From positions 1 to 34,035 of the forward strand of contig JAGVZZ010000018.1 of assembly GCA_018302205.1 (NCBI GenBank): DNA of 34,035 nt. Direction: 5' to 3'. Origin of the DNA: Candidatus Woesearchaeota archaeon. Lineage in GTDB: Archaea; Nanobdellota; Nanobdellia; SCGC-AAA011-G17; GW2011-AR17. The notes beneath the pieces were generated by a model. It saw only the letters and a program-made list of their open reading frames with translations, ran no database searches and had not been told where the DNA came from. How positions within the stretch are numbered: the first letter of the stretch is position 1; the number at the start of each line of letters is the position of its first letter. Both the position numbers and the translations under genes were made by a program. Below, in pieces: positions 154 through 34,035 of this stretch.

Positions 154-498
154 CTACAATAATTTCAAATGGGAAGTAATTCTATCAATCTTTGTTTCCT
201 CATCAGGGCCAATTGCTAAACATGTTGTTGTTGGCTTTTCAAATACAGTTTTACCAGCATCTGTAATCAATGAAGTTTTTAATTTAAGAGCATCTGCATT
301 TTTTTTCAAACTAATTAGTTCTTTTAAATCTGCAACTTTTAATACCACTTTTTTCATACCTTCTGAAGACCATTCATCCAATTTGTCTTTTGAAGTTTTT
401 AGAACAGCACTAACAGATGCATGGCAACATTGCGTTGCCAATTTTCCTTTAGGCATTTGTAAATCCATGCGAACTAATATTACTTGTTTTAGGCCCAT
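154..498 (-). CDS. pth2: Peptidyl-tRNA hydrolase, archaeal/eukaryotic Pth2 type
   Basis: QVILVRMDLQMPKGKLATQCCHASVSA and C-terminal TCLAIGPDEETKIDRITSHLKLL are typical of the Pth2 family. Confidence 0.93.
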   Translation of the reverse strand: MGLKQVILVRMDLQMPKGKLATQCCHASVSAVLKTSKDKLDEWSSEGMKKVVLKVADLKELISLKKNADALKLKTSLITDAGKTVFEKPTTTCLAIGPDEETKIDRITSHLKLL

Positions 499-1282
499 TT
501 TTCCTCAATCTTAAATGATTTTCAAATCTTTCCCTTTTTCTCTTTAAATAAAGGTTTCCTGAATTATTATATAGCCAAAAGCTAATTTTTCTGGCATCAT
601 TTCCATAATAACATACCCGAAATATACTTTTGTGCTTGCTGATAGGATGTGGCTTAATCTTTAATAATTTATGGATTTTATTTTGTAAAACAAATAAGAA
701 ATTATAGGGGCCTAAAAAAGAGATTATGATAGTATTTGGTTTATTAAAATAAATCGAACCATCACCATCAAAAAATCCTCTTAAAAAATGGGAAACTAAA
801 GATTCGGGGATATTTGGAAATTCAATTTTCAAACTTTTATTTGGAATACAGCCCAATTTAATTAAATCATTAGCTAAAACTTTACTTTGTATTACTAGAT
901 AAGAAGAATTATTATATTCTTTAATAGGTCTATTATTATTTAATGTTTGACTAATTAAATTTAATATTTCTTTGTCTTTGTTATTTATATGAATACTAAT
1001 CTGTTTTAAATTTTTAGAAACACTACCGTCACTAAACCACCATCCCAATAAGTAAGCCATTTGTGGAGCAAATTCTTTAAAAAAATTATGATTAACAGAA
1101 TATTTTCTTGTTCTCATTTCTCTTTTAAGATTTAATCTTGAGGCTTTATGGTATATTGAACTTTTAGTTTTATTAGGCAAAAATAAAGAAATATTATTAA
1201 AGGAATAATTTTCCTGAAGTACTTTTAATTCTTTATCTGACCATAAATGCAATTTTTTATTTAATTGATTATCTTCCATCAA
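449..1282 (-). CDS. Free-standing LAGLIDADG-type homing endonuclease-like protein with N-terminal SANT/HTH-like region
   Basis: Two LAGLIDADG-like helices (MAYLLGWWFSDGS; LVSHFLRGFFDGDGSIYF) and an N-terminal LWSDKELKVLQENY segment; 3' end overlaps the pth2 start by 50 nt. Confidence 0.8.
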   Translation of the reverse strand: MMEDNQLNKKLHLWSDKELKVLQENYSFNNISLFLPNKTKSSIYHKASRLNLKREMRTRKYSVNHNFFKEFAPQMAYLLGWWFSDGSVSKNLKQISIHINNKDKEILNLISQTLNNNRPIKEYNNSSYLVIQSKVLANDLIKLGCIPNKSLKIEFPNIPESLVSHFLRGFFDGDGSIYFNKPNTIIISFLGPYNFLFVLQNKIHKLLKIKPHPISKHKSIFRVCYYGNDARKISFWLYNNSGNLYLKRKRERFENHLRLRKNGPKTSNISSHGFTNA

Positions 1283-1313: not shown

Positions 1314-1350
1314 TTATTTAAAAAGTCTGCGTGGGCATTTGTCCTGTCTG
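1314..1350 (+). promoter_or_regulatory. Conserved non-coding motif, copy 1 (TTATTTAAAAAGTCTGCGTGGGCATTTGTCCTGTCTG)
   Basis: 29/37 identity by eye to the reverse complement of 33991-34027; both copies lie upstream of a gene in the same orientation. Confidence 0.5.
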
Positions 1351-1434
1351 AAGATTAAATTGTTTATAATCATTTCCAAAAAGTTTAAATTAAAGAAATG
1401 TTTACAAGAAGACAATAAAAAGAGGTGATACATA

Positions 1435-33502: not shown

Positions 33503-33886
33503 CTAATCATCAACAATTACTAATCCTAATCTATTAAATAGATCAGTTGCTTCAGCCTGTTCTAGTCTGTATGACCAAACAAATCTTTCTCCAGAATCAT
33601 AAGCATATCTTCCAGAAGAAAAATAATCACTATCAAGTTTACTTTCTATTCCTAAGTCATTTCTAACTTTTTCGGGTGTTGAATCTAAAATTCTAGTGAA
33701 TCCTAATAATCTATAAGTACTCCCCAAATTCTCTGTTTGTTCTTCTAAACGTTTAAGGAGATATGTTAAGGCCCCTGTAAAAGAAGGTGTTGTTCCCTTT
33801 ACATGAAGATGAAAAGTTCTATTTCCGTCAGAAATAGGAATTTCCCTGGTCATTATTATAAGTGTATTGTTGTCTATCCATTTCAT
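33503..33886 (-). CDS. Hypothetical protein (127 aa)
   Basis: ORF preceded by RBS-like GGAGGAAT on the minus strand. Confidence 0.6.
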   Translation of the reverse strand: MKWIDNNTLIIMTREIPISDGNRTFHLHVKGTTPSFTGALTYLLKRLEEQTENLGSTYRLLGFTRILDSTPEKVRNDLGIESKLDSDYFSSGRYAYDSGERFVWSYRLEQAEATDLFNRLGLVIVDD

Positions 33887-33953
33887 TTATTCCTCCTTCC
33901 TCTTTTACTAAAAAATATTAATCCACTATTAATAAATTTTATTTATCATAAAT

Positions 33954-33976
33954 ACCCCACTGCTCTGCGGTGGGGT
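33954..33976 (-). other. Strong RNA hairpin in the leader region of the 33503-33886 gene
   Basis: ACCCCACTGC-TCT-GCGGTGGGGT, 10-bp stem with one G.U pair. Confidence 0.7.
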
Positions 33977-33990
33977 TCGTAATTAAGCCC

Positions 33991-34027
33991 CGGACATGAC
34001 ATTTGCCCGCGTAGACTATATAAATAA
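33991..34027 (-). promoter_or_regulatory. Conserved non-coding motif, copy 2 (minus strand TTATTTATATAGTCTACGCGGGCAAATGTCATGTCCG)
   Basis: 29/37 match to 1314-1350; TATA-like start; upstream of the 33886 gene. Confidence 0.5.
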
Positions 34028-34035
34028 ATTTTTCT

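Follow-up and report, generated by a model that had tools for sequence, protein, structure and literature searches.

A short promoter element of Woesearchaeota is probably the operator of an unrecognised SOS-like DNA-repair regulon, which homing endonucleases and TnpB share. Read from the genome sequences, the element lies next to the TATA box, precedes a recurring set of genes, is conserved across species and is present on TnpB and homing-endonuclease genes. A sequence-specific putative regulator would bind to it and control DNA repair and recombination. The core host members would be the helicase-nuclease Hef, the helicase Lhr, Nre, DinD-like/Bro-N proteins, nucleases and two small-protein families.

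Copies of the element in the window and in related genomes

The window, which is the whole stretch of 34,035 nucleotides that was analysed, is contig 41 of the archaeal bin G000 (645 kb; 71% complete) and comes from a woesearchaeote. A sequence-only reading of it had noticed that positions 1314-1350 match the reverse complement of 33991-34027 at 29 of 37 positions. This similarity held up, since in 60 dinucleotide-shuffled windows no two 37-mers were identical at more than 25 positions (mean of the best values 22). The IUPAC pattern given by that reading had exactly 2 matches in the window, where 0.00 were expected, and 7 in G000, where the reversed control had 0. A near-identical pattern was found 8 times in the sister genome G009 of the same genus (Candidatus Woesearchaeota archaeon RIFOXYA1_FULL_29_14) and 0 times when reversed.

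For the further searches, two models were used. R1 is a sequence-only model built from 16 sites, and R2 is a family model built from 35 sites, with which we searched 103 genomes of the order and 376 of the class, most of the genomes being incomplete and metagenome-derived (MAGs). At E<2e-5, R1 matched 25 sites in G000 and G009 together (about 12 and about 13, respectively), and it extended the element by a few bases to 1314-1356 on the minus strand and 33985-34028 on the plus strand. The two copies of the window are therefore neither alone in the genome nor unrelated to gene starts, and the family of co-regulated promoters that had been proposed is borne out by this genome-wide search. An exact order-wide pattern was misleading, as it led to 2 genomes only; the diverged form became visible only with the profile models.

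Among the GTDB genomes, the strict core pattern was found in the sister woesearchaeote and in scattered single bacterial matches, which we take as chance. It had no match in IMG/VR, and a viral origin was rejected. A search of the window for Rfam families and tRNAs returned two tRNAs only, none at the element. We found no description of the element in the open-access literature.

A decayed copy was observed in G000 (C14, L058/L128), where a 105-aa gene, intact in G009 (L022), has lost its start codon in a deletion that also took the TATA half of the element.

The element adjoins a TATA box and serves the gene on that side

In the aligned copies, the element is immediately followed by a TATA box, and the gene that this box serves is opposite to the one chosen in the sequence-only reading. 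The start codon follows on the TATA side, usually 20-60 nt on, in nearly all copies, and the genes on the other side are mostly unrelated neighbours. The claim that each copy faces its downstream gene thus has to be reversed, the conserved start-codon distance being on the opposite strand. At the left end of the window, the features are as follows.

1314-1356, minus strand: left promoter element copy (R1, E 2.1e-11; R2, E 4.5e-7; the training of both models includes this site or close relatives), in promoter sense AATCTTCAGACAGGACAAATGCCCACGCAGACTTTTTAAAT
1315-1324, minus strand: TATA-like box TTTTTAAAT directly after the left copy, read from the sequence and at the same place in the aligned copies
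449-1279, minus strand: gene of a LAGLIDADG homing endonuclease with its ATG at 1279, which has the left copy as its promoter element

The left copy had been placed upstream of the surface protein gene (1435). Because its TATA side carries the conserved start-codon distance, we assign it instead to the minus-strand endonuclease, which starts 35-45 nt from the TATA box. The encoded protein (452-1279, minus strand) matches Pfam LAGLIDADG_3 (PF14528, E 8.9e-11). The gene behind the left copy is thus of the kind known from free-standing LAGLIDADG homing endonucleases, whereas here many unrelated endonuclease types and host repair genes share one promoter element.

In one G009 contig (C60, L131), the whole stretch corresponding to 451-1444 of the window, endonuclease and element, is missing, and the junction also lacks the start codons of pth2 and of the surface protein gene. 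This gap reflects a deletion around the endonuclease or else a mis-assembly. In G000 (C39, L007/L126), a homing endonuclease gene lies between sequences that resemble tRNA 3'-halves, one of which abuts the promoter element, and a tRNA-targeted insertion is possible. A split tRNA or attachment site, considered from the tRNA-3'-like tail of this C39 copy, was rejected since it is not general among the other copies.

In its layout, the element has a direct repeat, GGACA/GGCA, and then GCGCGCAG, which adjoins the TATA box, with GACA ... GCGCAG as the conserved core. The diverged family form, read from the hef promoters, is TGGACA-n-GGCA-n-GCGCGCAG-nn-TTTATAAA. By their sequence, GGACA and GGCA look like direct-repeat half-sites, and GCGCGCAG is at the BRE position, where TFB would contact the promoter. 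A repressor on GCGCGCAG would block TFB/TBP, or a special TFB would read GCGCGCAG. Of derepression and activation, we prefer derepression as the likely mode of control, because the element abuts the TATA box.

The second of these possibilities leads to a somewhat unlikely alternative, namely that the element is not an operator but an alternative BRE of the core-promoter class that is read by a special TFB paralogue, which would fit either signal discussed below. The position of GCGCGCAG, exactly that of the BRE, is in line with it, as is the finding that in many distant genomes only the GCGCGCAG half and the TATA box were matched. However, a normal BRE would not reach the invariant GGACA repeats, which are 10-25 nt farther upstream at variable spacing.

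A leader RNA had also been suggested. Being located upstream of the TATA box, the element is outside the transcript, which makes a structured leader RNA or a small RNA on the strand of the earlier reading extremely improbable. The arms AAGCC/GGCTT and GGGC/GUCC are pairable in several copies and their G-U pairs fit that strand, but they fail in the hef, lhr and C15 copies. The arms pair in register in 57/79 cases versus 58/79 when slid by one column, the GGAC arm is nearly invariant and not covarying, and no conserved gene lies downstream on that strand. Pair counting on both strands likewise led us to reject an RNA structure of the element.

The right copy probably belongs to a TnpB element

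At the right end of the window, the following features were found.

33985-34028, plus strand: right promoter element copy (R1, E 2.8e-13), in promoter sense AAGCCCCGGACATGACATTTGCCCGCGTAGACTATATAAAT
34017-34025, plus strand: TATA-like box TATATAAAT, read from the sequence and by comparison with G009 as that of the missing TnpB gene
33955-33975, plus strand: hairpin CCCCACTGCTCTGCGGTGGGG at the left end of the TnpB element, common to five copies and two remnants
33938-34035, plus strand: left end of the repeated TnpB element, which the contig end truncates

Five copies in G000, including the right one of the window, end 18-36 bases from a contig end and are 97-100% identical over about 98-115 bases of DNA. 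Judged by this identity, they are one end of a multi-copy element with an unassembled interior. In G009, the same upstream DNA leads directly into tnpB (MQRTI...; guided_TnpB, E 1.8e-48). From this we infer that the right copy is the promoter of a TnpB gene that runs off the contig, and not of the 127-aa ORF at 33886 to which it had been assigned. No tnpB was found in the G000 bin, probably because the interior of the repeat was not assembled. The suggestion of a small repeated element was thus partly correct, five of the copies being carried by a TnpB transposon.

As with IS200/IS605-type TnpB elements, the tnpB element whose upstream end holds the right copy is present in several copies and has a subterminal hairpin; the difference is the promoter element of host repair type between the end hairpin and tnpB. 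No tnpA-like ORF was recognised beside the intact tnpB of G009. The hairpin was also seen in two remnants of G000 that lack the promoter element (C8, L029; C29, L030). Their inner sequence is a different one, suggesting a second, related element family.

Repair, recombination and homing genes behind the element

The element was found upstream of hef in 11 genomes, all 7 of the genus and G002, G003, G004 and G005. The R1 matches in the five other genomes of the genus were weak, but there was one per genome exactly in the hef promoter. Further weak R1 matches precede lhr, nre, Bro-N/DinD-like, recombinase, PD-(D/E)XK nuclease and homing endonuclease genes. The lhr gene follows the element in 4 genomes (G007, G008, G009, G010) and nre in 3 (G007, G008, G010). 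DinD-like/Bro-N genes are behind it in 8 genomes in all. They comprise Bro-N genes in G002, G005, G008, G011, G012 and G079, a Bro-N DinD-like protein in G223 of another order, and a PRK11525-type DinD (NCBI DNA damage-inducible protein D; E 1e-70) in G014, which is the best DinD homologue. One operator-like site is hence present at the promoters of several DNA-repair genes and conserved across species.

The nuclease and recombination targets include PDDEXK/Cas4-like, DHH, RNase_H_2, tyrosine recombinase, Mrr-like and HNH genes. About 20 LAGLIDADG-type endonucleases and TnpB are also located behind the element; the homing endonucleases behind R2 matches are of the LAGLIDADG, NUMOD3 and HNH types. 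R2 matches also precede a C5 methyltransferase gene, members of an 85-aa family and paired ORFs of about 40 aa. Several sites are without a clear gene nearby (G000:C44, G009:C42, G008:C13, G008:C52, G012:C20, G005:C112). The gene radA was not among the identified targets, but no radA-like gene of any kind turned up when G002 was searched for Walker motifs either.

With this many mobile genes, the element might be a promoter piece that was dispersed by TnpB transposons and homing endonucleases and has no host regulatory meaning. In favour of this, TnpB ends account for five of the G000 copies, and homing endonucleases follow most of the others. Yet in 11 genomes the element is present at the orthologous hef position amid diverging surroundings, and several genomes have it at lhr and nre, so that we already disfavour such a dispersal as very improbable.

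The Lhr helicase of G009 (C2, L123; 1184-5401) contains an intein, which places a homing element inside a gene of the same putative regulon.

A held-out scan of a complete genome

To reduce circularity, the complete genome of the relative G002 (984,719 bases, 985 kb) was scanned with a model trained without the G002 site. Nine sites reached 13.0-27.6 bits, after which the score fell to 5.0 bits for the tenth match. In the reversed G002 sequence, none was found at 8 bits or above and seven at 3 bits or above. All nine sites were upstream of regulon-type genes or small ORFs. The targets are a 146-aa protein, a Bro-N gene, hef, a member of the 85-aa family, the small-ORF pair, three LAGLIDADG endonucleases and one 78-aa ORF. 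The 146-aa protein, which has no Pfam or NCBIfam match, was read as helix-turn-helix-like. Six sites are followed by a gene of 90 codons or more, and there the start codon was 21-35 nt downstream; about 6% of random positions have such a start within 90 nt.

A putative operator distinct from known damage responses

Archaea have no LexA and are commonly described as having no classical SOS regulon, and a UV study of Sulfolobus reported no repair-gene induction (PMC2246294). The element is similar to the operator of the bacterial LexA/SOS system in that both are short and near the promoters of repair helicases or nucleases and dinD-type genes, and in that the LexA operator is also used by mobile-element recombinases, for example integron integrases. 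LexA operators have forms such as CTGT-N8-ACAG or GAAC-N4-GTTC, with which the consensus TGGACA-n-GGCA-n-GCGCGCAG-TATA does not agree. Unlike them, the woesearchaeal site abuts the TATA box and consists of a GGACA/GGCA direct repeat and GCGCGCAG, and its gene set includes LAGLIDADG endonucleases and TnpB. The Orc1-2/DDRE system of Sulfolobus also has a promoter element (ANTTTC) for a damage-responsive archaeal gene set (PMC9738581). These six bases are unrelated to the woesearchaeal element, with no ANTTTC in its GACA ... GCGCAG core, and the known targets differ, being for example the ups pili and orc1-2.

DNA damage would be the most likely signal, because Hef and Nre are both needed for the repair or tolerance of mitomycin C damage in Haloferax (PMC4929162). 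The DNA-cutting homing endonucleases and TnpB that have the same promoter would then be made when recombination repair is switched on. These enzymes would need recombinational repair of their own break to spread, so that acquiring a repair promoter would pay.

The selfish nucleases outnumber the host repair genes, so the shared regulatory site could also respond to another signal, such as DNA uptake, host contact, the replication state or a recombination-active growth phase. We regard this as rather unlikely. The gene set, heavy in recombination and nuclease functions and dominated by mobile genes, would suit it, as would the absence of radA from the targets seen. It is opposed by the crosslink-repair role of Hef and Nre in Haloferax (PMC4929162) and by the recurrence of the PRK11525 DinD homologue and other repair nucleases in distant genomes.

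Returning to DNA damage, a wider proposal, to which we give even weight for and against, is that in Woesearchaeota and neighbouring DPANN orders an SOS-type regulon independent of LexA would be inducible through an operator of its own, and that homing endonucleases and TnpB would have acquired this operator repeatedly, cutting only during recombinational repair. If hef, lhr, nre and the DinD-like genes do share an operator, it would be a first point of entry to damage-controlled transcription in uncultured DPANN archaea and offer a route to the regulator. It would also show unrelated selfish nucleases using the repair control of their host, and the link of homing and TnpB activity to host repair becomes directly testable.

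Small-protein families behind the element

The element marks two small-protein families as candidate repair or checkpoint proteins. The 85-aa family (80-92 aa) is a recurrent target, with a member in G009 (C21, L020) and homologues in G001, G002, G004, G012, G026, G038, G062 and G076. It has no sequence relative in PDB, Pfam or NCBIfam. The AlphaFold model (pLDDT 80) predicts a beta sheet and a long helix and gave no convincing fold match. The second family is a pair of about 40-aa ORFs that is conserved behind the element in several genomes, with the motifs FSxQLMxLP and MLExDxIxxFEExFMxGYM; these are possibly checkpoint-type small proteins. The pair was found at the following places.

G009:C18 (L120), G000:C27 (L032), L225, L229, L230 and L228: pair of about 40-aa ORFs
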